From: Candidatus Eiseniibacteriota bacterium
GTDB taxonomy: Bacteria > Orphanbacterota > Orphanbacteria > Orphanbacterales > Orphanbacteraceae
Assembly: GCA_029262235.1 (NCBI GenBank)
Contig: JAJCZU010000004.1
Location: 1,117,231-1,181,230, forward strand
Direction of reading: 5' to 3'
DNA length: 64,000 nt
The first letter of the stretch is position 1. Each line of letters opens with the position of its first letter. The position numbers and the translations under genes are program-made. The notes under the pieces were generated by a model. The model saw nothing but the letters and a program-made list of their open reading frames with translations. It was not told the DNA's origin and made no database searches. Shown in pieces: positions 42,704 through 61,860 of the stretch.

Positions 42704-44086
42704 TCAACCGCCCCAGTGAATTGCAACCTCGATGATCGCGCGTGTCCGTTCCGTTACACGCACACGATCGGCGATTTCGACACCCGCCACCCACACGATG
42801 CCTTCGGCGTCTTCGACAAGCGGCACGCGGCCGCGAAAAGTGCGTGGAACCTTGCGATCCACGAAGAGATCCTGCAGTTTTCGTTTTCCCGGCGCGCCCA
42901 GAGGCCGGAACCGATCGCCCTCACGCCATACTCGGACATGGAGGGGTTCCTTCACAAGGTCCGCATCCATCCAGGCCTCGTCAAGCGAATGTGGCCGTTC
43001 ACTCAGGTTCCCGGGCCGCGCTTCGTGGCGCGAAGCTTCGAGCACGGCGCCTGAATCGAGCGCCAGACGGCCCGGAACAGCCAGCTCACGTGATCCCGGT
43101 GCCGGTGCTCCGGAGGCGGGGCAGATTGCGAAAACGCCCCCCTCGACCACGAAATCGCAGTCGTTCCACTGGAATCGCTTCGATTCCTCGCTCGTGAGCG
43201 CATCCCAGACCGATTCCACGAATTCCCGGCTCGGCGAGTAGAGCGATCCCGACCACTGCCGGGCCGCTTCCCCGAGGGCCTCTTTCCCGACTGCGGGAGG
43301 GAGACGGCGGAGCGGAGCCGCGTCGATCACGTCTGTCTGCCTCTTTTCGTCCGGGCGGATCGAGTCCGTGAGCCACTGGGCCGCGACATGCGCGATGAAG
43401 TCCTGCGCTTCAGCCGCAATGCCGGCCGAACGCGCGAGGGGCGCGGTAATCGAACGGCCGAGTGCGCGCTCCATCTCTGGAACGATCGAAAGCCGAAGCT
43501 TGTTCCGTCGATAGTCGGTGTTCTCGTTCGACGAGTCTTCGCGAAACGCGAGATCGTGCTTCTCGATATAGCCCAGAACAGCTTCACGATCCACGTCGAG
43601 CAGAGGACGGACGAAACGGTTTCTCCGGTACATGATGCCGGCGATGCCGCGAAGTCCCGCGCCCCGTGTCAGGTTCAGAAGCACCGTTTCCGCGCGGTCG
43701 GTCATCGTATGCGCGGTGGCGATCACGCGCGCGCCACGCGCTTCCAGTTCTTCGCGAAAGAGGGTCTGGCGAACCGCGCGCGCCGCGGCCTGCAGCGAAG
43801 GCTGTTTCGATTCGATCGGTCCGCTGCGCACCGTGAGCGGGATCGCGTGCGTTTCGCAGAACGTGCGGACGAACGCTTCGTCCCCGTCCGACTCGGAGCC
43901 GCGCAGCCCGTGGTTCACGTGAATGGCGGAAAGCGTGAGTTCCCAGTCAGTGCGAAGCCGCAAAAGGACGTGGGCGAGCGTCGTCGAATCCGGTCCGCCC
44001 GAAAGTGCGAGCAGGACATGTTCCCCCGGCAGCACGAGGCGACGCTCCTGCATCGTTGTACAGGCTCGATCGAAGAGATCGTCCAA
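42704..44086 (-). CDS. tilS: tRNA(Ile)-lysidine synthase
   Basis: About 460 residues from a TTG at 44086, chosen because the preceding helix '[21 protein letters not shown]' is normal in the family; an ATG at 44053 is the alternative. The open frame continues to 44152 but that lies within the tRNA gene, so it cannot be the start. The PP-loop motif SGGPDS is at residues 29-34, followed by '[16 protein letters not shown]' and '[18 protein letters not shown]'. A C-terminal TilS domain ('[20 protein letters not shown]') is present. It changes C34 of tRNA-Ile2(CAU) to lysidine. A CAU-anticodon tRNA gene sits 37 bases upstream. Confidence 0.94.
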
Positions 44087-44122
44087 TCGGGCACCTGCCG
44101 CGGGGAAGACGGGGAAGAGGAG

Positions 44123-44196
44123 TGCCGGCGCAGGGATTCGAACCCCGGACACGCGGATTATGATTCCGCTGCTCTAACCAACTGAGCTACGCCGGC
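44123..44196 (-). tRNA. tRNA with CAT anticodon, probably elongator tRNA-Met
   Basis: Read on the minus strand the 74 bases fold perfectly. Acceptor stem GCCGGCG pairs with CGCCGGC (7 bp), D-arm GCTC/GAGC, anticodon stem GCGGA/TCCGC with loop ATCATAA (anticodon CAT), five-base variable loop, and T-arm with TTCGAAT. The discriminator is A and the CCA end is not encoded. The paired 1-72 end and lack of three G-C pairs in the anticodon stem exclude initiator tRNA. The body resembles elongator Met; tRNA-Ile2, which has the same anticodon before TilS modification, cannot be fully excluded. Confidence 0.95.
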
Positions 44197-44245
44197 CCGT
44201 TTTCAAAGCTAGACAAGGAACGGTAATGGGGGGCGCGGATTCTTG

Positions 44246-46801
44246 TCAATCGCGTTTCTTCCGAAAGCGGGATGCCCCGATTAAAAGGAGATAGATCCCT
44301 CCGGCGATACCAGAGAAGCGAACCCCGTTCCGCCAGCTCTCCGGGGCGTATCGGAGAACGATTTCGTGGTCGCCGCGCGGAACGGCGATGGCGCGAAAAG
44401 TCGTGTGGGCACGGAGAATCGGCGCGGGGCTCCCGTCCACCTCGGCGGTCCAGCCGGGGACATCGTTCTCGCAGACGAAAAGCAGGCCGTCGCGGGACGA
44501 AGACGTTCTGACGCGAATCGTGCCGTTGCTTCGCGTGAAGTCACAGGTGTCGCCCGGGTCCCAGGCAGGTGCGGACCCGACGATGCCGGGATCTTCTTCG
44601 AGCAGAAGCGGACCGCGCGGATCGAATGTCGCCGAGACAAGACGGGCGCGCGCCGCCTCCGGATCCGTCACGACTTCGTAGTCATGAATCAGAAAAGCGA
44701 ACGGGAGCGCGTCCCGGTTCTCGAGCACGGCCCAGGAACTCATCGGCATGTACGACGAATAGAGGTCGGCAATCGCAAATCGTTCGTGTCCGTGATTCAG
44801 CGCCGCCACCACGCGTTCCGGTTCGAAAGACGGCCCGACGAGAAGCGAGCGCATCCCGAGGAGATCCCAGACGGGGCGGTCGAGTTCGCCGATCGACGTG
44901 AAGGGCGCAATGCGCCTTCCATCGGGAAAGAGCACGGGGGAGACGGCGCCGAAGATCGCACCGTACCTTGCGGGCATAAGCGCGTTCACGCCGGCGACGT
45001 CGTCGATGCCGTACACGAGAGCCGTGTTCGGGGGCAGCAGGTACTGGCCGCCGAGCCGCGCGATCCGGCCGGGCGCCTTGCTCAGCTTCGCGATCGCGGG
45101 GTGCGGCGCGAACGCCGTTTCGCGCGGCGAGTTCGTGTAGTACGTGCGCGCGAACGTGACCGTGTCGAAAACATGAATCACCAGAATCGCGCCCACAGCG
45201 ACAAGAAATGCACGGCTGGCGGGGAGGGCCGGATCCCCGCGTCGCGTCCGTGCGGCCAGTTCGAACGCGACGCCGAGCAGCGCGAGGAGGAGCGCGGTAC
45301 GCCGCACGCACTTCCACGTGTGCGCTTTCCATGCGCGCGGCGTGACCGCGCGATTCGACGAAGTGGGAAACCACGCCGCGGCAACGGGCGGCATCTGCAT
45401 CGTGCCGCCATACGCGAGCCGCGTGCCCGCCCCCGCAGTCGGGCTCGTGCCCTGCTTCTCGAGCAAAGCACGCGATGCCACGCGATAAATGGCATCGCCT
45501 CCGAGCGCGAACGCGATCACGAGCACGAGAGAAGCGCCGATCATCACGAGCCCGGCGCGCGTCGGACGCGGGGGCGCGGTGGCATCTTCGCCCCGCGCCT
45601 CGAAAAGCGCGCCCCAGCCGAGACCGGCCAGTACGCAAAGGGCGAACAGAAACGGGAACTGCAGTCGATGGAGTTCCGATGAGAACCGGGCGAACGGCAC
45701 GAGCTTGTAATAGAGCGAATAGGCGTGCGAGGAAAAGAGGAGAAGCAGGCTCGTTGCGGCGACGGCGAAGAAGAACCATCGTTCACGCCGGCGCGATCGA
45801 AACAGCGCAAGGAACGCGAGCAGAAGCGTCGCGAGACCGGCGTAACCGAGAAAACCGATGTCGTTCGGATGCGGAATCGGGCCGTCGAACGCGTGAATCC
45901 AGTACGTTTCGTCAACCGGATTTCCGAAGAAGTCGGGCACGAGCGCCCGGATCATCGTAGCCGGCTCCGGTTGATGAACGGCCACGATCTTGTCGAGCGG
46001 GATCGCGGTTCGATCGGAAAGGGAGCCGAGTTCTTTCGTGGGAAGAAGTTGAAACAGTACGAGCCCGATGCCGAGCGCCACGCCTGCGCCGGCAGATCCC
46101 AGCCCGATCCACCGCTGCTTCGCCACCGCTTCGAAGAGAGCGTAGGCCCCCGCGATGATCAGCGAGTAGAGGATCGTCTGCGGAAATCCGCCGAGAAAGA
46201 GCATGGCCACGACGAACGGAAGCGCGAGCCATCCGCGTCCGTGCACCGCGCGTCTTACCGCCAGGAGCAGGAACGGCAGCCAGCATCCTGTCGTGATGTG
46301 CACGGGATGGCCGATATACGTTGCGAAGTACGCGTTGAATCCGAACGCGATCGCGCCGAACGCGCCGCCCCAGGGACCCACGCCGAGCGCGCGCAGAAAA
46401 AGAAAGAGACCGAGTGCGCCTGCGAGCAGATGCACGTAGAGGAAGATCCCCGTTCCCTCGAGCGCGTCGAATCGATAAAGAATCAGGTTCAGCGGGTGAT
46501 AAACGCCCGACTGAAAGTCCGCGAGATGAGGCGTGCCGCCGAGAACGTGCGGATTCCAGAGGGGGACTTCCCCCGCGCGAATCGATTCCTGCGACAGCCA
46601 GCGGCGCGGGAAGTACGTGATGGCCGAGTCGTCGCGAAACCCGGGTGCGCCCGCTTCGACTCCGGCGGCTTCGGTGCGCCACGGGAGCCACCGGGCCATG
46701 TTCGCGGTAATGAGAACACGGTTCCCGAAAAGCACATCACTGAAAAAGAGAGTGAAGATCAGCGCGACGAGAACGATCGCGATCGCGGATTGCTTGGACA
46801 A
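44246..46801 (-). CDS. YfhO-family large membrane protein
   Basis: 851 residues from a TTG start with ggtggtg in front. A first helix and then about a dozen hydrophobic segments fill residues 5-560, with GT-C-like features near the N-terminus ('FPRRWLSQESIRAGEVPLWNPH' between helices 1 and 2). The C-terminal 250 residues form a soluble beta-rich domain ('LPFAFLIHDYEVVTDPEAA' and 'VPRGDHEIVLRYAPESWRNG') typical of YfhO, ending with a last helix. YfhO proteins are thought to be lipid-linked-sugar glycosyltransferases for lipoteichoic acid-like or other glycans. It is last in the four-gene envelope operon. Confidence 0.88.
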   Translation of the reverse strand: MSKQSAIAIVLVALIFTLFFSDVLFGNRVLITANMARWLPWRTEAAGVEAGAPGFRDDSAITYFPRRWLSQESIRAGEVPLWNPHVLGGTPHLADFQSGVYHPLNLILYRFDALEGTGIFLYVHLLAGALGLFLFLRALGVGPWGGAFGAIAFGFNAYFATYIGHPVHITTGCWLPFLLLAVRRAVHGRGWLALPFVVAMLFLGGFPQTILYSLIIAGAYALFEAVAKQRWIGLGSAGAGVALGIGLVLFQLLPTKELGSLSDRTAIPLDKIVAVHQPEPATMIRALVPDFFGNPVDETYWIHAFDGPIPHPNDIGFLGYAGLATLLLAFLALFRSRRRERWFFFAVAATSLLLLFSSHAYSLYYKLVPFARFSSELHRLQFPFLFALCVLAGLGWGALFEARGEDATAPPRPTRAGLVMIGASLVLVIAFALGGDAIYRVASRALLEKQGTSPTAGAGTRLAYGGTMQMPPVAAAWFPTSSNRAVTPRAWKAHTWKCVRRTALLLALLGVAFELAARTRRGDPALPASRAFLVAVGAILVIHVFDTVTFARTYYTNSPRETAFAPHPAIAKLSKAPGRIARLGGQYLLPPNTALVYGIDDVAGVNALMPARYGAIFGAVSPVLFPDGRRIAPFTSIGELDRPVWDLLGMRSLLVGPSFEPERVVAALNHGHERFAIADLYSSYMPMSSWAVLENRDALPFAFLIHDYEVVTDPEAARARLVSATFDPRGPLLLEEDPGIVGSAPAWDPGDTCDFTRSNGTIRVRTSSSRDGLLFVCENDVPGWTAEVDGSPAPILRAHTTFRAIAVPRGDHEIVLRYAPESWRNGVRFSGIAGGIYLLLIGASRFRKKRD

Positions 46802-46818
46802 ACGTCACCACCGGTCGG

Positions 46819-47526
46819 TCAGTTTCGGCGAAGATCTTTCCATAGATCGAACATCTGCGCGATCGTCATCGCGATCTCTTTCACGCGATAGCGGCTGCCC
46901 CCTTCGCGCCGGCGAAAGTGCGTGACCCCTACCTGTACGATGCGAAAACCGGCCTTGCGTGCCTTGAGCAGGACTTCGGCGTCGATCAGGCCGCGCGTCG
47001 ACTTCAGTTCGATCCTGTCGAATACTTCACGTCGATACAGTTTGAATCCGCAGTTTACGTCTTGGAACGGAAGATCGAAAAAGAGGCGGAGCGATGTGTT
47101 GTAAACCCACGACACGATTTTCCGCTCCCATGTGTCCATGCGTTTGATCTTGTAGGCGGACACGATGTCGGCGTCTGCGATCAAAGGGATGAGCTTCGGC
47201 ATTTCGGATATGTCGAACTGGAGGTCGCCGTCGGTGTAGAAGACGAACTCGAGCTTCGCCTCCTGGAAGCCCGTCCTGAGCGCGCTGCCGTACCCCCGGT
47301 TCTGAGGATGGTGGACGACGCGGATGCGGCGATGTTCCGCGGCGAGACGATCGGCGATCTCGCCGGTACGATCGGTCGAACCGTCGTCGACGATGATGAC
47401 CTCATAGTCGGATGCGACTTCGCGCAGCACCTTGTCGGCCCGCAGCGCGAGTTCCTCCACGGTCTTCTCCTCGTTGCACGCGGGAAAGAAGAACGAGATC
47501 GCCGGTTTCTCCAGTGGGCGCGACAC
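46819..47526 (-). CDS. family 2 glycosyltransferase, polyprenyl-phosphate sugar synthase-like
   Basis: 235 residues from a GTG. The GT2 nucleotide-sugar fold is clear: 'ISFFFPACNEEKTVEELALR', VIIVDDGSTDRTG, and the metal-binding 'FVFYTDGDLQFD' (DxD-like). The order and 'RGYGSALRTGF'-type segment resemble dolichol/polyprenyl-phosphate mannose synthases. No membrane tail is seen. It probably charges a polyprenyl-phosphate with a sugar for the GT-C enzymes encoded beside it (DUF2723 and YfhO). Its start is two bases after the sulfatase-like gene. Confidence 0.92.
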   Translation of the reverse strand: MSRPLEKPAISFFFPACNEEKTVEELALRADKVLREVASDYEVIIVDDGSTDRTGEIADRLAAEHRRIRVVHHPQNRGYGSALRTGFQEAKLEFVFYTDGDLQFDISEMPKLIPLIADADIVSAYKIKRMDTWERKIVSWVYNTSLRLFFDLPFQDVNCGFKLYRREVFDRIELKSTRGLIDAEVLLKARKAGFRIVQVGVTHFRRREGGSRYRVKEIAMTIAQMFDLWKDLRRN

Positions 47527-47528
47527 GG

Positions 47529-48992
47529 TCAGTCCCCCCCCATGTAACCGAGGGCTTCGAGCACTTTGCGCTCCTCGTCCGAGAGCTCCGGGAAACTGAC
47601 GTCGCGGGAACCGGCGCGCACGTCGTCGAGCAGCTGTTTCATCTCCGCGTACTTTTCCGGATCGCTCTCCGCGCGGTTGATCTGCTCGTTCGGATCGTCG
47701 GCAAGCCAGTACAGCTGCCGGACGTCGGAGCCGTCTTCTTCGATAATTTTCCAGCCGTTGAAGCGGACCGAATGGCGCGGCTCGGTCTTCCAGTTCGGTT
47801 TGGGCCCGTACAGTTCCGCGAGCACGGGCACGTCGCTCATTTCTTCTCCGCTGAAAGCAGGCGTCAGGGATCGCCCGTCGAACGCATCGTCCGTCTCGAT
47901 TCCGAGCATCGCGAGCAGGGTCGGCACGATATCGACCGAACGCACGGTGCTCTGCACGATCCTCCCGCCATCGGCCATTCCCGGCGCCATGATGATCAGG
48001 GGCACATGAATCGAAGGGTCGTAGAGCATGATGTCATGACCGAAGTAGCGGTCCCGCTCGTAGAGCATTTCACCGTGATCCGCCGTGAGAATCACGATCG
48101 TCCTGTCGGCCATCCCGGATGCTTCGAGCTGGTCGAGAATGATGCCGACCTGGAGATCCGTATACGCCACTTCGCCATCGTAAAGACCGCGAATGCTCTG
48201 AACTTCCTCCTCGGTGAGATCGATGTACCCTTTCCAGAGCTGCTCCAGCGTGACCTTGTCGGCCTGCAGATTCGTGTTGGCTCGGTGGTCGTACTTCAGG
48301 CGCTGGGACTTCGGCGGCTCGTACGGCTTGTGCGGATGAAACCAGTGAACCCACGCGAACGTGGGCTGTTCCGAAGGCGCCGCAAGATACTGGCCCACGG
48401 CTTCTGTCAGAATGTCGAAGCCGGAGTTGGCCCGGATTCGGTTCGCCTCTTCGGTATTGTAATTGTAGCGGCGCCAGAACGAGTCGAAACCCTGGCCGAT
48501 GCCGTATCGATTGTCGAGCACGTGCGACGAGATGAACGCCCCCGTGCGATACCCTTCGACTTTCAAGTATTCCGCCAGCGTCGTCTTTTCTTCTTCGAGA
48601 GTATAGGCATGGCTCAGCACGCCGTGAGACTTGGGGTAGAGACCGGTCAGAATCGACGTGTGAGAGGGGAGCGTAAGCGGCATGGCCGCGAACGCGTTGG
48701 CGAACAGAACTCCGCGGGCCGCGAGACGATCCATGTTCGGCGTGTCGGCGTACATCCCGCCGTAACACCCGAGCCGGTCCGCGCGGAGCGTATCGATCGT
48801 GATGAGAAGCACGTTCCACGGTTTTTCGCGCTGCACGCCGCAGCCGAACCCCGCGAGCAGGACTGCCGCGAGCAGGGCTCTCCCGAGGGGTCCTCTGGCG
48901 AGGGAGCCTCGAACGAGGGGCCCTCGAATGAGTGGAAACGCTCGATATAAAAAGAGGCGCCCGGGAACCCGTTTGCCGCTCGTGCCGGTCAT
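47529..48992 (-). CDS. sulfatase-fold hydrolase/transferase with Thr nucleophile
   Basis: 487 residues; aaggagagg sits just before ATG 48992. A basic, repeat-derived N-region (RGPLVRGSLARGPLGR, residues 23-38) leads into a hydrophobic segment ending AGFGC. The alkaline-phosphatase-superfamily core shows D67 in TIDTLRAD and, where a sulfatase would have Cys or Ser in C-x-P-x-R, T107 in TLPSHTSILTG. Later 'TADHGEMLYERDRYFGHDIMLYDPS' supplies metal ligands. Without Cys or Ser it cannot form formylglycine, so it is more likely a phosphohydrolase or phospho-substituent transferase than a true sulfatase. It is exported or membrane-anchored. Confidence 0.88.
   Translation of the reverse strand: MTGTSGKRVPGRLFLYRAFPLIRGPLVRGSLARGPLGRALLAAVLLAGFGCGVQREKPWNVLLITIDTLRADRLGCYGGMYADTPNMDRLAARGVLFANAFAAMPLTLPSHTSILTGLYPKSHGVLSHAYTLEEEKTTLAEYLKVEGYRTGAFISSHVLDNRYGIGQGFDSFWRRYNYNTEEANRIRANSGFDILTEAVGQYLAAPSEQPTFAWVHWFHPHKPYEPPKSQRLKYDHRANTNLQADKVTLEQLWKGYIDLTEEEVQSIRGLYDGEVAYTDLQVGIILDQLEASGMADRTIVILTADHGEMLYERDRYFGHDIMLYDPSIHVPLIIMAPGMADGGRIVQSTVRSVDIVPTLLAMLGIETDDAFDGRSLTPAFSGEEMSDVPVLAELYGPKPNWKTEPRHSVRFNGWKIIEEDGSDVRQLYWLADDPNEQINRAESDPEKYAEMKQLLDDVRAGSRDVSFPELSDEERKVLEALGYMGGD
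48869..48928 (-). repeat. four 15-bp in-frame repeats at the start of the sulfatase-fold gene
   Basis: Units at 48869-48883, 48884-48898, 48899-48913 and 48914-48928 follow the plus-strand pattern cgaggggNcctcNNN, with the first unit the most diverged. Read in frame on the minus strand they encode RGPLV-RGSLA-RGPLG-RALLA. They build the basic N-region before the hydrophobic segment, closely parallel to the repeats at 518-580. Confidence 0.8.
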
Positions 48993-49053
48993 GAACCTCT
49001 CCTTGAGGTGAAAAATGCGTATCTTCCAAAGATAAAGGGGGTTCCGGGGACCG

Positions 49054-50559
49054 TCAATCGGATTTCACGCGTACTTCGAAGAGCCCGTGCACACTCACGA
49101 CGTGATACTCCTGGCGGATCTCGTGCGTGATGTCCTCGGCGTAGACGACCGCCGGAGGCACGAGGTGCCGGATCGCGTCCGCGTATCCTTTTCGAGAGAG
49201 CGAGTGCACGTGCACGTCGGGCCGCAGCCCTTCCACGGTCTGCAGGTAGCGCAGGTACGACGCGCGCCCCCAGGGCATCAGAATGTGCGCCCGTTCCGCG
49301 AGATTGCTGGTCATGATCGCGCGTTCCGTCGAGAGCGTGGTCTGCGCGTGCTGATAGCCGAGGTCATTTCCCGCGCGCTTCACGACGTCGCGCGCATTCA
49401 GCGCCGCGAGAGCCGCCAGCCCCGCGAAGGCGAGCGAGCGCCCCGCGGCCGGATGACGGAGCAGCGACTCGAGCAGCCGTCGCACGTCCTCGAGGAGGAT
49501 CCCCGCCCCGGCGGCGAGCATCATCGACGAGGGAATCAGGAAGTCTTCCCAGTCCATCGAATTGAAGTTCCCGTAGAACAGCGTATTGACGCCGAACACA
49601 TAGAGGAGCAGCAGCGACTCCCCCCGCGGGCCGATGAACATGCCGCGCAGCAGCCCCGCAAGCCCGAGCCCGAGAAAGAGAGTGCCGATGCTCCCGCGAA
49701 AATAGTCCGGGAAGCGGGGGAACATCTCCGCCGCGGTCTCTCCGAACCAGCTGAGCTTCCGTTTCGGTCCCGCGCCTGAAAGTTTATACCGAAAGCGATC
49801 CGAGAAGGTCGTGCCGGCGAGTTCTTCGTCGATCAGGCCCCATTCCACTTTCGTCTGAATTTCGTCGAAAGCGTTGACGGGAGGGTTCGTCCCGTTACGG
49901 ATCGGCAGGTGCGCGAAGACCGTAAACGCCACCGGTACGAGTAGAAGCGCCGCGAGGAACCGCTTCGCCGGCGGGCGAATCGAGAAGGAAAGCAGAACCA
50001 GTACGGCATAGCCGGGTGCGAAGAGAAGCGCGCTGCCGTGATGCGTCGCGTCGAGGGCCGCGGCGTAGGTCGCAAGCAGCAGCAGGCGGTCGTTGCCCGT
50101 TCGGCGCCATCGGAAGAGCAGAAACAGCGTGAGCGCGAGCAGAAACGCGTGGAGCGCGTACACTTCGGCAAACGTCGCGATAAACCAGAAGGGCCGGCCG
50201 AGGGCGAGCATGGCCGCGGCGATGGCCGGCGCGAGCATGCGCCCGCGCAGCTCCCGCACCGCGAGTGCCAGCAGAAAGAGAGCCCCGCCCGCGAAAAGGG
50301 CCGAGGAAAGATTCATCGCGTGCGCGGGGGCTGAACCGGGCAGCAGGCGCGCCATTCCGCCAAGCCACGTATAAAGAGGATACCCGGTGGCGTGAGGAAT
50401 CCCCTGGCAGAAGGCGGCGGCGATCAGTTCGGCGGAATCGCCCCCTTCGGGATCCGTCCTCGTCGAAATCACGAGGAAGAGCGTGGCGGCGAGCAGAACC
50501 AGCAGCGCGGCCCACTCTTTCTGCAGGAACGAGAGCGCCCGGGTCCTGAACGGGGTCAT
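49054..50559 (-). CDS. DUF2723 GT-C membrane glycosyltransferase-like protein
   Basis: 501 residues with about ten membrane helices. The diagnostic loop after helix 1, 'EGGDSAELIAAAFCQGIPH' followed by ATGYPLYTWLGG, matches DUF2723, a GT-C family related to protein O-mannosyltransferases; the acidic D-S-A-E provides the catalytic position. The C-terminal tail of about 150 residues has a soluble part ending 'YHVVSVHGLFEVRVKSD'. It would move a sugar from a polyprenyl carrier to protein or lipid on the periplasmic side. It is the first gene of the DUF2723-sulfatase-GT2-YfhO operon and diverges from the lipoprotein at 50626. Confidence 0.9.
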   Translation of the reverse strand: MTPFRTRALSFLQKEWAALLVLLAATLFLVISTRTDPEGGDSAELIAAAFCQGIPHATGYPLYTWLGGMARLLPGSAPAHAMNLSSALFAGGALFLLALAVRELRGRMLAPAIAAAMLALGRPFWFIATFAEVYALHAFLLALTLFLLFRWRRTGNDRLLLLATYAAALDATHHGSALLFAPGYAVLVLLSFSIRPPAKRFLAALLLVPVAFTVFAHLPIRNGTNPPVNAFDEIQTKVEWGLIDEELAGTTFSDRFRYKLSGAGPKRKLSWFGETAAEMFPRFPDYFRGSIGTLFLGLGLAGLLRGMFIGPRGESLLLLYVFGVNTLFYGNFNSMDWEDFLIPSSMMLAAGAGILLEDVRRLLESLLRHPAAGRSLAFAGLAALAALNARDVVKRAGNDLGYQHAQTTLSTERAIMTSNLAERAHILMPWGRASYLRYLQTVEGLRPDVHVHSLSRKGYADAIRHLVPPAVVYAEDITHEIRQEYHVVSVHGLFEVRVKSD

Positions 50560-50625: not shown

Positions 50626-51807
50626 ATGAATCGACACTCCTTGCTGCGAACCGGCGTCTTTCTCGTCGCGGTCTTTCTGCTCCCGTTCGGGTGCGGGACG
50701 AAAGAAGAGAATACTATGGTGGGGTCCGATTTCATCACGAATCGTGACTGGGCCACGCCGCGCCTCGATTCTGCGATCGTTTTCATCAAGGACTCGTTCT
50801 TCGAGGCTTCGGTTTCGAGCGGTTCGCAGCATGAAGTCGTGATCGGCAACGTGCGCAAATTCCGTTTCGTCGGGGCCGTTCAGTTTCGCGGCCTTCCCAC
50901 GGACGCCGACTCCGTCCAGGCCGCCTGGGTCACCGTGGCTCTCGATACTCTTGTCGGCAGCGGGGACCTTCTGGTCGACCGGATCAAGGAAAGCTGGACC
51001 GAAGGCGGATCCACACGCGAACTCACGACGACCCTGGACGGCTTTACGATTTCCCCGACGACCGATCTCCGTATCGACGTCCCGCTCGACTGGGTGCGTG
51101 ACTGGATCGATTCGACCGCCACGAACCAGGGGATCCGGCTGCAGTTCGAAGAGAGCGAGGGCAATCTGATCCGCTTCCGCTCGAAGGAGGGGGATCCGGA
51201 CTCCACGCTCGGCGTCTCGATGATGCACGTCGCCTATAAGGACAGCACCGGCGTGCTCGACACGGTCAGCGTGCGCCCGCGCCGGGATCGCTTCTACGCA
51301 TTCAAGGACCGGGATGTTGTTTCCTATCTCGACGAGAACGACGCCGCCGACTCGCTCCTGATCGGCATGCATTCGTCGCTTTCGAACCTCGCGTTTCTGC
51401 AGCTCTCGGTCCCCGATTCCCTGCGCGACATCTCTGTGAACCGGGCGGAGCTGATTCTCCCCGTTCGCAGCTTCCGCCTCGAGGAGGACGATGAATTTAC
51501 GATTGAATGGCGCCGTGTGCTCGGCTACGAGACGTCCCGAGACAGCGTGACGTTCGAGTCGTTCTCGCTCGCATCCGGGACGTTCGGCCCGGCCGACTCG
51601 ACGTCCGTCGCCACGATTCCGGTGACGAGCGCGGTACTCGACTTCTATGAACTGCGCGACTGGGATCCGGTCCTGCTGCTGCGCGCGTCGCAGTCGATCG
51701 GAAGGAATCGCTCCCTTACGCTTCTCTCGACGGAATCGGGCGGTGACATGCCCCGGATCCGCCTTCTCTATACTCCGCTTCGCGACGAGTCCGGAGGCTC
51801 CGAATGA
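50626..51807 (+). CDS. lipoprotein with two beta-sandwich (DNRLRE-like) domains
   Basis: 393 residues. The signal region 'TGVFLVAVFLLPFGCGTKEE' ends at a lipobox-like LPFGC, with Cys 23. The rest is strand-rich and seems to be two similar halves, each with a '..DSVQAAWVTVALDTL.. / ..RAELILPVRSF..' pattern and ending with 'VLLLRASQSIG' and 'PRIRLLYTPL'. This resembles the DNRLRE beta-sandwich domain of surface proteins, a low-certainty match. It overlaps the next barrel-protein gene (ATGA at 51804), so the two are made together. Confidence 0.65.
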   Translation: MNRHSLLRTGVFLVAVFLLPFGCGTKEENTMVGSDFITNRDWATPRLDSAIVFIKDSFFEASVSSGSQHEVVIGNVRKFRFVGAVQFRGLPTDADSVQAAWVTVALDTLVGSGDLLVDRIKESWTEGGSTRELTTTLDGFTISPTTDLRIDVPLDWVRDWIDSTATNQGIRLQFEESEGNLIRFRSKEGDPDSTLGVSMMHVAYKDSTGVLDTVSVRPRRDRFYAFKDRDVVSYLDENDAADSLLIGMHSSLSNLAFLQLSVPDSLRDISVNRAELILPVRSFRLEEDDEFTIEWRRVLGYETSRDSVTFESFSLASGTFGPADSTSVATIPVTSAVLDFYELRDWDPVLLLRASQSIGRNRSLTLLSTESGGDMPRIRLLYTPLRDESGGSE

Positions 51808-53042
51808 TGCGAGCGGGCACAATCCAGCGCGCGGGCTCCATTCTGGGCGTGGCCGCCACAGCACTGGCGCTCTGGCTGCCGGGTGCTGCCGTCGCGGATT
51901 CGCAGTTCGGCACGAACGGGCTCGGCGTCAGCAACATGATCAGCCATGCCCGCGGATGGGGGATGGGCGGCCTCTCGACGGCGCTCGACGACTCCATGCG
52001 CGTCTCGTTTTCGAACCCGGCTCTGGCCGCCGGCCAGCGTCAGGTGTCCATGGCGATTCTGTACGCGGCCGATCGCAGGCGCGCGGAGGACGCGGGAGGC
52101 GACACGCGCTACAACAGCAGCACATTCCCGTATTTCGCGTTTCTCGTCCCGATGGGGCCCCGACTCGGCCTCGGCTTCGGCTACAACCTCGAGCAGGATC
52201 TCAGCTCCGCGCTTACGAATTCCGGCCTGATCGCCGCGAGCGGCGACATCCCGGCACACACACGGCTTTTCGAGCGGAGCGGCAGCGTGTTCCGCGTTCC
52301 GGGCGTGGTCGCCCTTCGCCCGCATGACAATCTGTATCTCGGTTTTCGGGTCGACGCATTCTTCGCGAACGCGGAAGAGCGCTTCGAACTCGATTTCGTC
52401 GAAAGCGGCATCGAAACCACCGAAGAGCGCGTGGAGATCAGCGGCCGCGGAACCGGCGGCGGATTCGGTGTGGCCTGGAAACTGCCGCCGCATTTGTCGG
52501 TGGGCGTCTCCTACGCGACTTCGGTCACGATGAACGCGAGCCGCCGCAGGATCGGCATGAACGGGAACATTGCGTCCCGCGACATCGACATCGGCTTCCC
52601 CGAGCGCGTAAGCGCCGGCGCGACGCTGCGCTGGAACCGGTTCACGCTGGGCGGCGAAGTGACGCAGGCAAAGTGGGAAGATCTCGACGATACGGAACAG
52701 CTCGCGCCCCTCGGCGGGTATCAGGACGTGACGGAGTGGGGCGTCGGCTTCGAGTTTGCGGAAAACCACTTCGGCCCGTTCCTGGGCCGGTTCCCGTGGC
52801 GTGTCGGTTTTCGGTCGTCGCCGCTCTCGTACGTGACTCTCGATGGAAAAACGATCGATCATTACTCGTTTACGTTCGGCTCCGGATTCAACCTGGGCCG
52901 CGGCGGTTTCTGCGACCTCGCACTCGAATACGGGCTTCTCGGCGATGCCTCGACCGTCGGGCTCGAAGAAAACTACTATCGATTCGTAGTCGGATTCAGC
53001 GGCCAGGAGCCGTGGCGAAAGCGAAAAAGCTACATCGATTGA
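51804..53042 (+). CDS. outer-membrane beta-barrel protein, FadL/PorV-like
   Basis: 412 residues with a signal peptide ending around 'LPGAAVADS'. The start of the mature chain, 'GLGVSNMISHARGWGMGG' then 'LSTALDDSMRVSFSNPALAA', is the FadL/PorV type of opening hairpin (a small-residue strand then NPA). Strands run through to 'NYYRFVVGFSGQEPW', ending in a basic tail RKRKSYID. Its neighbours are a lipoprotein (coupled) and the giant metallopeptidase/barrel protein 91 bases downstream, so all three likely work in the outer membrane. Confidence 0.75.
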   Translation: MMRAGTIQRAGSILGVAATALALWLPGAAVADSQFGTNGLGVSNMISHARGWGMGGLSTALDDSMRVSFSNPALAAGQRQVSMAILYAADRRRAEDAGGDTRYNSSTFPYFAFLVPMGPRLGLGFGYNLEQDLSSALTNSGLIAASGDIPAHTRLFERSGSVFRVPGVVALRPHDNLYLGFRVDAFFANAEERFELDFVESGIETTEERVEISGRGTGGGFGVAWKLPPHLSVGVSYATSVTMNASRRRIGMNGNIASRDIDIGFPERVSAGATLRWNRFTLGGEVTQAKWEDLDDTEQLAPLGGYQDVTEWGVGFEFAENHFGPFLGRFPWRVGFRSSPLSYVTLDGKTIDHYSFTFGSGFNLGRGGFCDLALEYGLLGDASTVGLEENYYRFVVGFSGQEPWRKRKSYID

Positions 53043-53133
53043 CCCCGATTCCGTCCGTCTTCACACCCGCGCAGTTTGCCGGTTGCCCGAAGTGAGGGTA
53101 TAATCCCCGAACAGCCCCCTGCAGGAGCCGGAT

Positions 53134-56100
53134 ATGCGTCTTTTCCGAACGATCGTTCTCAGCCTGTTTGTCGCACTCCTGCTCTCCGCGCCCGCCGGCG
53201 CCCAGTATTTCGGCAAAAACAAAGTGCAGTATCGGGAATTCGACTGGGCGGTCATCAAGACCGAACATTTCGAAGTCTATTATTATGAGACGGGAAAGCA
53301 GGTCGCGCTCGATGCGGCGCGCATGGCCGAACGATCGTACCGGCAGCTTTCGAAGCGCCTCGGGTACAAGATGGTGCGCCCGATCCCGCTCATCCTCTAC
53401 GCGTCCCACTCCGATTTTCAGCAGACGAACGTAAGCCAGGGCCTGATCAGCGAAGGAACCGGCGGCGTGACGGAGTTCATCAAGCGCCGCGTGTTTCTGC
53501 CGTTTACGGGATCGTACGCGGAACTCGAACACGTCCTGACACACGAACTCGTGCACGCGTTCCAGGTCGAGATCCTCTGGGGATCGTCGGGCAGCGTTCT
53601 CGCGAACACGCTCGGGTTCTCCCCGCCGCTCTGGTTCATGGAGGGGATGGCCGAGTACCTGTCGGTCGGTGAAGTCGACGTGCACACGAGAATGTGGCTC
53701 CGCGATGCGGCGCTGCAGGGGTATCTGATTCCGATCCCGATCCTGAGCCGCGTCGGCGACATCCGCGTGTACCGGTTCGGGCAGTCGATCTTCCAGTTTC
53801 TGGCCGACCAGTACGGCGACGAGAAGGTGGGCGAGATTCTGCGCGCGGCCCCTCGCGTGGGCGGCGTGAACCACGCGTTTCAGTCGGTGCTCGGCGTGTC
53901 GCTCTCGAAGTTTTCGGAAGAGTGGCTGGAAGACGTGCGCCGCACGTATCTCCCGCAGATCGCGGACTATCAGAAGCCGGAAAAGTTCGCGCGCAAGATC
54001 ACGGACAATGGAAAAGATCTCAGCTCGCTGAACCTCGTTCCCGCCGTTTCCCCGAGCGGCGAGCAGGTCTGCTTCATCAGCGATCGCAGTATGTATTCGG
54101 ATATTTATCTCGCGAGCACGAGCGACGGCAAGATCAAGAAGAAGCTGATCGAAGGCGAGCGGACGGCCGACTTCGAGTCGCTTCGATTCTTCAGCACGTC
54201 CATTTCGTGGTCGCCCGACGAACGGTTCATCGCCTTCCCCGCCAAAATCGGGGCGAACGACGCGATCTATATCGTCGATGTGCGCACGAAGAAAGTGCGC
54301 AGGAAGCTGAAGTTCGACTTCGACGGGGTCGTTTCGCCGTCGTGGTCGCCTGACGGCGAACATCTCGTTTTCGTCGCGCTCGAAGGGGGCAAGACGAACC
54401 TCTTCACGTGCCGCACCGACGGCTCCGAACTGACGCGACTGACCGACGACCGTTTCACGTGCCGGGACCCCGCCTGGTCACCCGACGGCAGGACCATCGC
54501 CTTTACGACGGATCGCGGAGGAGAAACGGACTTCGAGATCCTTCGCTTCGGCGATTTCAAAATCGCGACGTATGATCTCGCGTCCGGCGCAATCGAGATC
54601 CTTCCCGAAATGAAAGGGAAGAACATCGCTCCGCAGTGGGGGCCGGACGGCGAGAACATCATCTTCATCTCGGATCGATCCGGGATTTCGAATCTGTACG
54701 ACTACGAAGTCGCGACGGGCCGGATCTTCAAACTCACGAACATTCTGACGGGCATCACCGGCATCGTTCCGCAGTCACCGCCGTTCAGCTGGTCCCGAAG
54801 CGGCGAGATGCTCGTATTCTCGGCATTTTCGGGGGGCGGCTGGGATCTCTACACGATCCGCGATCCTTTGCGCCTCAAGAATGTGCCCATCGAAGGCGGC
54901 GATTCCGATCCCGCTCTCGTTGCGGGGACACAGCTGCCTGAAGCAGACGAGGCGAGTGAAGTCGGCGACGAGGGACCCGAGCCCGTTCGCTCGACACTCC
55001 CGTCGAAGCTGGTCGACCTGCGCACGATCTTTCCGAAGGCGGAGGTGCCCGATGAGGAGGTGCTGACCGCGTCGGCGGATCCGAATGCGCAGTATGCGCT
55101 GCCCGATACGACGGAGTTCGAGCGCAAGGACTACAAACTGAAGTTCAGCCAGGATTTCCTGTTCGGGGGCGCCGGTTTCGCGTCCAACGTCGGTTTTGCG
55201 GGCCAGAGCACGCTCTCGTTCAGCGACATCATGGGGAATCACAACATCCGCCTTGCCGCCGGGATCTACGGCTCGCTTTCCGACGCGGATCTCTTCCTCT
55301 CGTACGCGAATCTCAAACAGCGCCTGAACTACGCTGTCAGCATCTTTCAATTCCGGAACGATTTTTTCATCTTCTCGGCAACCGACGACGCGGAGTTCCA
55401 GTCACAGATCTATCGCGGCGCGGAGTTCCAGACCGCGTACCCGCTCAGCAAATTCCGGCGCTTCGAAGTGGGCGCGCGCGCGCTTTCGATTTCGAGCCGC
55501 GTGTTCCAGCAATCGTTCGATGTGAATACCGGCGGGACGCGCACGTCGATCGAAAACGGAGACACGCGCTACTTCGGCCAGCCGTTCGTCGCGATGGTGT
55601 TCGACAACGTGCTTTACGGGCCGACCGGCCCGATCAACGGGAGTCGCTCGCGCTATTCGATCGACTATGCGGCCGGCGACGTTTCGTACGTAACGGGCAT
55701 CGCGGACATCCGGAACTACTGGAACATCCGGCATCGGTATCATTTTGCTACGCGCCTTATCGTGGGCGGCAGCAGGGGGCGCGACAATCAGTTCTTCCGC
55801 GTCGGGGGGCCGTTTACGTTCCGGGGGCTCGACTGGGGCGATCTTCGCGGCACACGCCTCGGCACGCTGAACCTCGAGTTTCGCTATCCGTTCATCGACC
55901 AGATTCGATTCGGGTGGCCGCTGCCGCTCGACATTCGCTCCATCGGCGGCATTCTGTTCGTCGACGGAACCGCGGTCTGGGACGGGGACGGGCAGGAGCT
56001 GAAACCGATCTACCGCATTCAGCCGGAATCGAACGGGCTGATCACGAACGGATACGGATTCGCGTACGGATTCGGCGCCCGCGTCAATCTCGGCTTTTTC

Positions 56101-56190
56101 GTGCTGCGCTGGGACACGGGCCGCCTCACAGATTTCCAGAGAAACTACGGGAACGCATTCTCGTTCTTCACGCTTGCGGCTGACTTCTAG
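53134..56190 (+). CDS. gluzincin peptidase - TolB propeller - D15 barrel fusion
   Basis: 1018 residues; an aggag site lies in front of the ATG. Signal peptide to about residue 23. Residues 30-270 are a peptidase-MA-like gluzincin: zinc ligands and catalytic Glu in H137-E138-L-V-H141, third ligand Glu 170 in WFMEGMAEYLS. Residues about 290-600 carry WD40/PD40 beta-propeller blades ('WSPDERFIAFPAKIG', 'WSPDGEHLVFVALEG', 'WSPDGRTIAFTTDRGGETD') as in TolB. The last 350 residues are an Omp85/D15-type barrel, with 'FTFRGLDWGDLRG' like the (F)xRG motif. I infer an outer-membrane protease or assembly factor. It overlaps convergent bshB1 by four bases. Confidence 0.9.
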   Translation: MRLFRTIVLSLFVALLLSAPAGAQYFGKNKVQYREFDWAVIKTEHFEVYYYETGKQVALDAARMAERSYRQLSKRLGYKMVRPIPLILYASHSDFQQTNVSQGLISEGTGGVTEFIKRRVFLPFTGSYAELEHVLTHELVHAFQVEILWGSSGSVLANTLGFSPPLWFMEGMAEYLSVGEVDVHTRMWLRDAALQGYLIPIPILSRVGDIRVYRFGQSIFQFLADQYGDEKVGEILRAAPRVGGVNHAFQSVLGVSLSKFSEEWLEDVRRTYLPQIADYQKPEKFARKITDNGKDLSSLNLVPAVSPSGEQVCFISDRSMYSDIYLASTSDGKIKKKLIEGERTADFESLRFFSTSISWSPDERFIAFPAKIGANDAIYIVDVRTKKVRRKLKFDFDGVVSPSWSPDGEHLVFVALEGGKTNLFTCRTDGSELTRLTDDRFTCRDPAWSPDGRTIAFTTDRGGETDFEILRFGDFKIATYDLASGAIEILPEMKGKNIAPQWGPDGENIIFISDRSGISNLYDYEVATGRIFKLTNILTGITGIVPQSPPFSWSRSGEMLVFSAFSGGGWDLYTIRDPLRLKNVPIEGGDSDPALVAGTQLPEADEASEVGDEGPEPVRSTLPSKLVDLRTIFPKAEVPDEEVLTASADPNAQYALPDTTEFERKDYKLKFSQDFLFGGAGFASNVGFAGQSTLSFSDIMGNHNIRLAAGIYGSLSDADLFLSYANLKQRLNYAVSIFQFRNDFFIFSATDDAEFQSQIYRGAEFQTAYPLSKFRRFEVGARALSISSRVFQQSFDVNTGGTRTSIENGDTRYFGQPFVAMVFDNVLYGPTGPINGSRSRYSIDYAAGDVSYVTGIADIRNYWNIRHRYHFATRLIVGGSRGRDNQFFRVGGPFTFRGLDWGDLRGTRLGTLNLEFRYPFIDQIRFGWPLPLDIRSIGGILFVDGTAVWDGDGQELKPIYRIQPESNGLITNGYGFAYGFGARVNLGFFVLRWDTGRLTDFQRNYGNAFSFFTLAADF

Positions 56191-56906
56191 AGGGAACGGC
56201 CGAGGATCTCTGCGGGGTCGCTGATGCCGAACGGCTCGCGCAGCAGATACGGTTCGCCGTATGCCGTCTGGATACGCGCCCCGTACTCCTGATTCCGCAT
56301 CGTGATCTGCTCGTAGAGCGAAAGCGATCCGCTGGCGAGGATATCCCCCGCTTCCTTCGCATCGTCGAACTGCGAAGCATACGCACGCACCGCTTTCATC
56401 TTCGTCTCGAACGAATCCGAAATGTCGACGATGAAACTCGGCGTGACGGGCAGGTACGAGACCGCCTCGAGCACGAGCCGCGGCCGATGCCCCGGCGTCC
56501 CTTCATTGAGACTCGAGAGGCCCGCGCTGTACGCCGCCTGGCGCGACAGAATCGACGCGGCATGATGATCGGGATTGCGGCCGCCGTTGTACTGGATCAG
56601 CACGATTGCGGGCTTCCAGTCGCGCAGGAACGAAGCGATCACGAGACGGTGCGCCATCGTGTTCTCGAGGTGCGCGTCGGGCAGCGCCGCGTTCTCGCGC
56701 ATGGCGAGGCCCATGATCGCGGCCGCGTCGGCCGCCTCGCGCAGGCGTCGTTTCGCGCTCCCCTTCGAACCCGCTTCGCCCGCTGTAAGGTCCAGCACGC
56801 CCGCGCGCTTTCCGTTCGCCGCCGTCTTCGCAAGCAGACCGCCCATGAGCAGTTCGGCATCGTCCGGATGCGCCGCGATCGCGAGAATGTCGAGTGGTTC
56901 ATGCAT
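56187..56906 (-). CDS. bshB1: bacillithiol biosynthesis deacetylase (PIG-L/LmbE family)
   Basis: 239 residues. Zinc-binding AHPDDAE at residues 12-18, then 'LDLTAGEAGSKGSAKRRLRE', and the late NPDHHAAS complete the LmbE site. The length and these segments match BshB1, which deacetylates GlcNAc-malate on the way to the thiol bacillithiol; other LmbE deacetylases are possible. BshA and BshC are not in the window. A good -10 (TACAAT, 56922-56917) is ten bases from the ATG and no Shine-Dalgarno is visible, so the leader would be very short. Confidence 0.85.
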   Translation of the reverse strand: MHEPLDILAIAAHPDDAELLMGGLLAKTAANGKRAGVLDLTAGEAGSKGSAKRRLREAADAAAIMGLAMRENAALPDAHLENTMAHRLVIASFLRDWKPAIVLIQYNGGRNPDHHAASILSRQAAYSAGLSSLNEGTPGHRPRLVLEAVSYLPVTPSFIVDISDSFETKMKAVRAYASQFDDAKEAGDILASGSLSLYEQITMRNQEYGARIQTAYGEPYLLREPFGISDPAEILGRSL

Positions 56907-60762: not shown

Positions 60763-61860
60763 ATGAAGATCATCGCCATCGCAAATCAAAAAGGGGGATG
60801 TGGAAAGTCCACCACCGCAGTCAATCTGGCTGCTTCATTGTCCGAGCTCGAAGGACGAGTGCTGCTCGTCGACCTCGACCCGCAGGGCCATGCGTCGCTC
60901 GGCCTCGGGATCGATACGGAACTTCTCGCGCTCACTGTGCGCGACGCGATCATGCAGCCGGCCAAACCCCTGTCCGCCATCAAGCTGCCGGCGCTCGAAG
61001 GCGTCGACGTCATCCCCGCCAACGTACTGCTTTCGACCGTCGAACAGGAACTCGCCGGCGAGGAAGGTAGAGAGACGCGGCTTCATGAAGCCCTGGCGGA
61101 AGTCCGCGACCAGTACGACTGGATTCTGTTCGACTGTCCGCCGAGCGTCGGGTTCCTGACGATCAATGCTTTCGTTGCCGCCGATGCGGTACTCGTGCCG
61201 ATCGACTCTTCCTCTTTTTCGATGCATGGTCTCGAGCGCCTGCTCGACACCGTGGACCTGGTTGAGTCGAACGCGAACAAGAAGCTTCCCGTGCACGCGC
61301 TGGCCACGATGCACAATCCGCGCACGAAATACGGCCGTCAGTTCTTTGACGAACTGCGTGGCCGGTTCGGCGACCATCTCCTCGAAACGGTGATCCATCA
61401 GTCGGTCGTAGCGAAGGTCGCGGCATCCCGCGGGCTTCCGATCGGCCGGGTGGCGCGCCACTCCCGATTGCACCAGGACTATCTGGCGCTCGCGACGGAA
61501 GTGGTCGAGGCGTCTGCCGCCGACGATCTGCCGGCCACCTTCGAGGCACCCGTTGCGATGCCTTCCGGCGGGCCGCTCGTGGTCGGGGACACGATCGAAT
61601 TCGAACTGGAGGCGCCGGCCACGTCGTCAGTGGCGATTGTCGGCGAGTTCAACGACTGGAACGCGGACGTAGGGAAGATGAGCTACGACCGGCGCTCCGG
61701 CATCTGGCATCTGACGGTTGCGGTCGTGCCCGGCCGGTATCGCTATCGGTTCATCGTCGATGGCCAGTGGGTGGAAGATCCTTCGGCGCCCTGCGAAGAG
61801 TCTGCGGCCGGCTATCGGAATTCGGTCGTCGACGTGGCCGGTGCGCGCGTCGTCGAGTGA
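60763..61860 (+). CDS. ParA/MinD-type ATPase fused to a CBM48/AMPK-type glycogen-binding domain
   Basis: 365 residues; gggagga precedes the ATG. Residues 1-250 are a complete ParA: deviant Walker A K10-GGCGK15-S16-T17, switch I DLDPQGHASLGLG (37-49), Walker B ILFDCPP (121-127) and the 'KVAASRGLPIGRVARHSRLHQDY' end. After a linker, residues about 275-360 form an E-set carbohydrate-binding module like AMPK-beta/CBM48: 'SSVAIVGEFNDWNADVGKM', 'SGIWHLTVAVVPGRYRYRF', 'VDGQWVEDP' and the closing 'AAGYRNSVVDV', with W299, W315 and W336 in the expected sugar-binding places. It is not a chromosomal parA: no parB is present, and the next gene starts within its stop codon (GTGA). A role in positioning glycogen or a glycan-making machine is inference. 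Confidence 0.95.
   Translation: MKIIAIANQKGGCGKSTTAVNLAASLSELEGRVLLVDLDPQGHASLGLGIDTELLALTVRDAIMQPAKPLSAIKLPALEGVDVIPANVLLSTVEQELAGEEGRETRLHEALAEVRDQYDWILFDCPPSVGFLTINAFVAADAVLVPIDSSSFSMHGLERLLDTVDLVESNANKKLPVHALATMHNPRTKYGRQFFDELRGRFGDHLLETVIHQSVVAKVAASRGLPIGRVARHSRLHQDYLALATEVVEASAADDLPATFEAPVAMPSGGPLVVGDTIEFELEAPATSSVAIVGEFNDWNADVGKMSYDRRSGIWHLTVAVVPGRYRYRFIVDGQWVEDPSAPCEESAAGYRNSVVDVAGARVVE

Follow-up and report, generated by a model that had tools for sequence, protein, structure and literature searches.

The window, the stretch of 64,000 nucleotides from a Candidatus Eiseniibacteriota genome that was analysed here, contains at 53134-56190 on the forward strand an open reading frame (ORF) with an ATG start that encodes a protein of 1018 amino acids, exactly as the preliminary description had delimited it. 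A chance ORF or a mis-join is ruled out by the existence of full-length homologues, with 32-94% identity, in many genomes. The AlphaFold2 model of this protein (pLDDT 84.5, pTM 0.84), for which 43 sequences were supplied (the window protein and 42 homologues from a motif-based scan of genome contigs), resolves into three folded parts. Following a predicted signal peptide at about residues 1-23 (53134-53202), assigned by sequence inspection and by a pLDDT below 50 at residues 1-24, these parts are a gluzincin-type (Peptidase MA) domain (residues 25-278; 53206-53967), a TolB-like β-propeller (residues 285-585; 53986-54888) and a 16-strand Omp85-type barrel (residues 663-1018; 55120-56187), the last separated from the propeller by a linker at residues 589-648 (54898-55077) that is predicted to be disordered (pLDDT < 50) and varies in length among homologues. 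Profile matches and the model agree with the combination of peptidase, propeller and barrel that had been proposed from the sequence alone, as does structure superposition for the propeller and the barrel, and we regard this anatomy as very nearly certain. Directly downstream, a gene on the reverse strand (56187-56906) that encodes the bacillithiol deacetylase BshB1 (209.5 bits, against a curated cut-off of 182.5) converges with the gene for the three-part protein and overlaps it by 4 bases.

The assignment of the N-terminal domain draws on several partial matches. Pfam family PF13485 (Peptidase_MA_2) matches residues 68-266 of the window protein with 26.2 bits (E 7.9e-6), below its gathering score of 32.4, and PF04450 (BSP) and PF01752 (M9) match weakly, the latter with 17.1 bits against a cut-off of 26, so that the M9 collagenase family score is not reached. 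Across the 43-sequence alignment, BSP is matched in 38 members and Peptidase_MA_2 in 25 (best E 8e-15). No M48 domain was matched by Pfam in the window protein at E-values up to 1. When solved structures were searched with a profile built from 15 peptidase domains, a microbial collagenase was found (7wss_A, E 3e-4), and in the alignment with solved microbial collagenases the HExxH, EGxAEY and YRxG motifs stand in register. Residues 25-278 are modelled as a mixed helix/strand domain in which HExxH lies on one helix (residues 128-149) and E170 on another (residues 166-178). The best 50 Foldseek/VIA-align matches listed for the full-length model all fall on the propeller or the barrel, with no structural match to the peptidase among them. 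The HExxH itself (H137, E138 and H141; 53542-53556) and the downstream glutamate E170 (53641-53643) together constitute the residue set by which gluzincins are recognised. E170, which aligns with the collagenase EGxAEY, is the probable third zinc ligand; the nearby E174 is disfavoured in this role, being kept in 79 of 92 homologues compared with 90 of 92 for E170.

These counts come from homologues that were not found by means of the catalytic motif. The patterns used in the motif-based scan (HE[LM][VT]HAFQ and PLW[FSM][MLI]EGM) contain the catalytic residues, which biases the conservation of 80/80 obtained from that scan. A separate set of 92 non-redundant homologues was taken from loci found by profile search (115 minus 23 genes shared with the motif-based scan) and hand-picked, not randomly drawn, from strong and weak matches. 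Within it, 90 members keep H137, E138, H141 and E170 together, which rules out that the conservation is a mere artefact of the search pattern. The preliminary description had expected the zinc ligands to be conserved and had named the loss of HExxH in most homologues as the observation that would count against it; at 90 of 92, its expectation holds and the loss is not seen. Two homologues (L208 in genome G189 and L209 in G212) have all zinc ligands replaced and keep the propeller and barrel, and these are probably pseudo-peptidases, judging from their sequences. Pairwise identity across 173 non-redundant full-length homologues averages 0.43 in the peptidase, compared with 0.36 in the propeller and 0.31 in the barrel. 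Because the catalytic domain is thus the best conserved part, a working enzyme can be argued for, and it is likely that the three-part protein is an active metallopeptidase, which would bind zinc and carry out proteolysis.

The propeller is matched by PF07676 (PD40; E 1.4e-22) and by TIGR02800 (TolB; E 1e-38), in the latter case with 133 bits against an equivalog cut-off of 343 that is not reached. TolB superposes on residues 284-568 (Foldseek and VIA-align; 2ojh, Z 26.5 over 251 residues at 2.5 Å; 1c5k, Z 26.4). Likewise, the barrel superposes on BamA/TamA (8xnb_A, Z 24.8 over 306 residues at 3.8 Å; TamA 8us3, Z 23.3), and its 16 strands are modelled between residues 672 and 1015; the absence of a C-terminal barrel from a structure prediction, the other observation that would have told against the preliminary description, is accordingly not what the model gives. 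By Pfam, PF01103 has no match in the window protein alone and is matched in 22 of 43 relatives, and the family profile of the three-part protein matches solved BamA barrels at about 4e-10. In the FRGLDWGDLRG segment, noticed initially in the D15-type barrel, the RG of FRGLD (R897-G898; 55822-55827) coincides with the L6 RG motif of Omp85 proteins and is kept in 158 of 173 homologues. The last residue is F, W or Y in 155 of these 173, the other 18 being gapped at the end. No POTRA domain was matched by Pfam in the window protein, in which residues 25-585 are modelled as peptidase and propeller. Among the 92 motif-independent homologues, the barrel could be aligned in 89. Of the other three, L196 and L130 (the latter at a contig end) are partial, and L216, with 1003 amino acids, has the peptidase and propeller without an alignable barrel.

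Upstream of this gene, and on the same strand, lie a lipoprotein gene (50626-51807) and a gene for a BamG-like barrel of the FadL family (51804-53042), which share 4 bases. The barrel protein, the best BamG match of its genome, matches NF053685 (BamG) over its full length with 131 bits. The curated cut-off of 250 is not reached by this protein and is passed in none of 22 genomes, though 18 of the 22 have a match. The profile of the BamG-like family matches solved BamG chains (9hiv_F, 6e-18; 9n2d_B, 1.5e-15; 9hjm_F, 2e-12), behind which the FadL-type transporters CymD and TodX rank at 4e-5 and weaker. The lipoprotein is a candidate BamH on account of its DNRLRE-like character and its position before bamG-like genes. 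The NCBIfam DNRLRE model matches all five members of the lipoprotein family (best E 2.5e-12), and all five aligned lipoproteins carry at least two acidic residues among the six after the lipobox cysteine, which is the rule given for surface lipoproteins (PMC12578637). A search of solved structures in the PDB with the lipoprotein profile yielded no match to BamH, returning cereblon alone (E 0.49), and the single-sequence model of the lipoprotein (pLDDT 30.5) is too poor for fold comparison. BamG and BamH have been reported across most FCB phyla, as has a putative bamG2-bamH2 operon (PMC12611786; PMC12578637). The coupled lipoprotein/barrel pair was already recognised in the preliminary description, and its 4-base overlap is real; what that description did not see is that the pair is probably best read as BamH-BamG-like, a reading that moves the locus closer to outer-membrane assembly.

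A homologue of the lipoprotein gene lies directly 5' of a BamG-like gene in four further genomes (G008, 6e-14; G013, 2e-11; G007, 1e-5; G012, 8e-4), so the pair is older than the family to which the window belongs. The genes for lipoprotein, BamG-like barrel and three-part protein are adjacent in this order in G001, G002, G003 and G004; in G006 a stretch of about 5.4 kb breaks the order, and in G005 the contig ends. In 80 homologue loci of other lineages, searched with family-specific profiles over flanks of at most 8 kb, no such bamG-lipoprotein neighbourhood was found, and this absence outside the family of the window speaks against a general bamG-lipoprotein-peptidase cluster. Between bamG and the gene for the three-part protein there is a promoter-like TTGCCG-17-TATAAT (53076-53104; two such sites in the region, 1.2 expected by chance), which leaves the cotranscription of these two genes uncertain. 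Divergent from the bamG cluster, the genes at 42704-50559 include ones that we take to be tilS and a YfhO-like gene, together with glycosyltransferase, sulfatase and TMEM260-like O-mannosyltransferase genes, and are syntenic in relatives. Further downstream, the gene at 60763-61860 (forward strand) encodes an unusual fusion in which a ParA/MinD-type ATPase (PF13614, 4.7e-55) carries a glycogen-binding domain (AMPK1_CBM/CBM48; PF16561, 7.9e-13) at its C-terminus.

Homologues of the three-part protein are present in 7 of 7 genomes searched from the phylum of the window, and the motif-based scan of genome contigs found at least 531 relatives. Going by their record labels, the best 80 of these at least 531 include Gemmatimonadota, Eisenbacteria, Latescibacterota, Fermentibacteria, KSB1, Calditrichota, Glassbacteria, Cloacimonadota, Aminicenantes and Acidobacteria/Vicinamibacterales, as well as one Bacteroidetes, one Clostridiales and unplaced bacteria. 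When whole phyla were counted, each named after the label of the locus through which it was entered, a homologue was present in 118 of 121 genomes of the Gemmatimonadota-type phylum (E 1e-60; entered via HR33), in 24 of 24 of the Calditrichota-type phylum (E 1e-100; entered via a Calditrichaceae locus), in 61 of 99 of the phylum entered via a Bacteroidetes-labelled locus (E 1e-40) and in 34 of 80 of that entered via an Acidobacteria-labelled locus (E 1e-60). HR33 is presumed to group with Gemmatimonadota, a placement that rests in part on its gene order. Many genomes have two or more copies, and at least two matches occur in 23 of the 24 Calditrichota-type genomes. The genome of the window itself encodes three paralogues: one complete (936 amino acids), one in which only the peptidase was aligned (938 amino acids) and one of 1170 amino acids (L022, 7330-10842) that has propeller and barrel and shows gaps at the HExxH columns of the alignment. 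The clade that unites the window protein with its orthologues in G002, G003, G004 and G006 has a tree support of 1.0, and nodes deeper in the tree, around the paralogue, are poorly supported. In Gemmatimonadota- and Calditrichota-type genomes, where outer-membrane assembly has hardly been studied, the gene seems to be close to a core gene. The fusion of propeller and barrel reported from the window is real, but it is not singular: it has the anatomy of the published WD40-Omp85 subfamily, and proteins with all three parts occur commonly in several phyla.

The housekeeping genes for ribosomal protein L9 and RsfS are the chief neighbours of the three-part gene in loci of Gemmatimonadota. The gene 3' of the three-part protein in these loci encodes a protein with a lipoprotein-like start, a SPOR domain at its C-terminus and a weak match to BamB/PQQ, as seen in the one example scanned (L100, 8873-10438), and the cluster of such SPOR genes was found in 25 of 81 compared loci.

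Barrels of the 16-strand Omp85 type have both termini in the periplasm. As the barrel is preceded by the peptidase and propeller, these two domains would consequently lie on the periplasmic side. An ordinary BamA is encoded elsewhere in the genome (506 bits, cut-off 297), and BamA is present in 12 of 12 genomes checked, which argues that the three-part protein is an addition to BamA and not a substitute for it. Once exported and freed of its signal peptide, the protein would be held in the outer membrane by its C-terminal barrel, from which a flexible linker of about 60 residues would suspend the gluzincin domain and the propeller in the periplasm. Docking of a partner or a substrate could be the task of the propeller, and the peptidase could cut or chaperone outer-membrane or other envelope proteins, its clients most likely being stalled proteins or ones that need trimming at the assembly site. 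Such a protein would work like a combination of BepA (the protease), BamB (the propeller) and a BamA-type barrel, beside the ordinary BamA of the genome. We tentatively propose, by analogy with these systems, that it is an outer-membrane-tethered periplasmic zinc protease of envelope or outer-membrane proteins; that it acts on outer-membrane proteins at the membrane is a conjecture on which opinion could reasonably lean slightly to the negative. In favour of this proposal are the conserved catalytic set, the peptidase being the best conserved domain, the wide distribution, the BamG-like and lipoprotein neighbours in the family of the window, the SPOR gene of Gemmatimonadota loci and the precedent of BepA. 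Against it weigh the two homologues without zinc ligands, the absence of the bamG-lipoprotein neighbourhood from the 80 loci of other lineages, the promoter-like site and the housekeeping neighbours in Gemmatimonadota. The protein may further take part, as the preliminary description suggested, in the quality control or processing of outer-membrane proteins, and may cooperate with the BamG-like protein. A bolder version, in which the protein is a self-contained assembly-and-proofreading machine of Gemmatimonadota, FCB and Acidobacteriota, its own barrel offering the insertion seam, the propeller replacing BamB, the tethered zinc peptidase removing stalled clients, and BamG and the lipoprotein serving as partners in the family of the window, would amount to a protease-coupled Omp85 branch parallel to BamA; we consider it improbable. 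If the enzyme is active, a protease is physically built onto an Omp85 barrel, and the clearance of stalled outer-membrane proteins at their assembly site becomes a question that can be tested with one gene.

Other functions can be envisaged for the same architecture. The barrel could be a translocation pore and the peptidase could mature the proteins that pass through it or arrive at the surface, as in a PlpD-like or two-partner-like exporter. Omp85 translocases such as FhaC and PlpD do exist (PMC4104836), the multiple copies in Calditrichota-type genomes would suit different cargoes, and the nearest genes in the family of the window encode the BamG-like barrel and what may be a surface lipoprotein. 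Nevertheless, no recurrent cargo gene stood out in the neighbour clusters that recur across the 81 compared loci, and Pfam found no POTRA to receive a cargo, making export a rather unlikely function. The closeness of the propeller to TolB, both in sequence and in fold, and the SPOR domain encoded by the next gene of Gemmatimonadota loci would suit a Tol-Pal-like envelope linker, in which a Pal/OmpA-type or peptidoglycan-bound partner is held by the propeller, the barrel serves only for anchoring, and lipoproteins or other envelope proteins are cut by the peptidase during remodelling; yet the TolB N-terminal domain is missing, the TolB equivalog cut-off is far from reached (133 of 343 bits) and TolB-type propellers are a common scaffold, for which reasons we hold such a linker to be unlikely. 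Finally, a scavenging peptidase that breaks down peptides or foreign proteins close to the membrane, with the barrel as anchor or uptake pore, is suggested by microbial collagenases being the nearest solved peptidases by sequence, but is an unlikely reading given that this similarity is weak (E 3e-4) and that presence in 118 of 121 genomes and the ribosomal protein and RsfS neighbours better fit a housekeeping role.

The tethered periplasmic protease that we favour resembles several known systems in part. The E. coli M48 protein BepA is likewise a periplasmic zinc peptidase with HExxH and is tied to outer-membrane protein assembly, acting on LptD at BamA (PMC8423444; PMC13067283), but it is a separate protein without propeller or barrel. 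The genes upstream recall the BamG-BamH of the Bacteroidota BAM, in that a FadL-type BamG(-like) barrel is encoded beside a lipoprotein in both, with the differences that the BamG cut-off is not reached in the window and that BamH is unrecognisable by sequence. TolB shares the propeller, by fold (Z 26) and by sequence, whereas the three-part protein lacks the TolB N-terminal domain, stays below the TolB cut-off and has the propeller fused to other domains. With BamA and TamA it shares the 16-strand barrel and the L6 RG motif, and it differs from BamA in having no POTRA domains. The catalytic unit of M9 microbial collagenases aligns in HExxH, EGxAEY and YRxG, but this similarity is weak and below the family cut-off, and a propeller and a barrel replace the collagenase domains. 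PF00149 is a phosphoesterase family. It defines the 'Metallo' subfamily of Omp85 proteins, which is a separate group (PMC4104836). The closest counterpart is the WD40-Omp85 cluster, defined in 2014 by Heinz and Lithgow and likened by them to a BamA-BamB fusion, which has an N-terminal TolB-like propeller and an Omp85 barrel without POTRA domains (PMC4104836). The apparent difference is the N-terminal peptidase, of which section 10 of that paper states none for WD40-Omp85, the word 'peptidase' not being found in its main text. In the open-licence PMC literature, no description of the three-part protein was found apart from the WD40-Omp85 class. The combination of propeller and barrel is thus already known, while the conserved peptidase part and the prevalence of the protein in little-studied phyla appear to be undescribed, and the protein may be seen as a variant, or an unrecognised part, of the WD40-Omp85 kind that is as yet uncharacterised and widespread.
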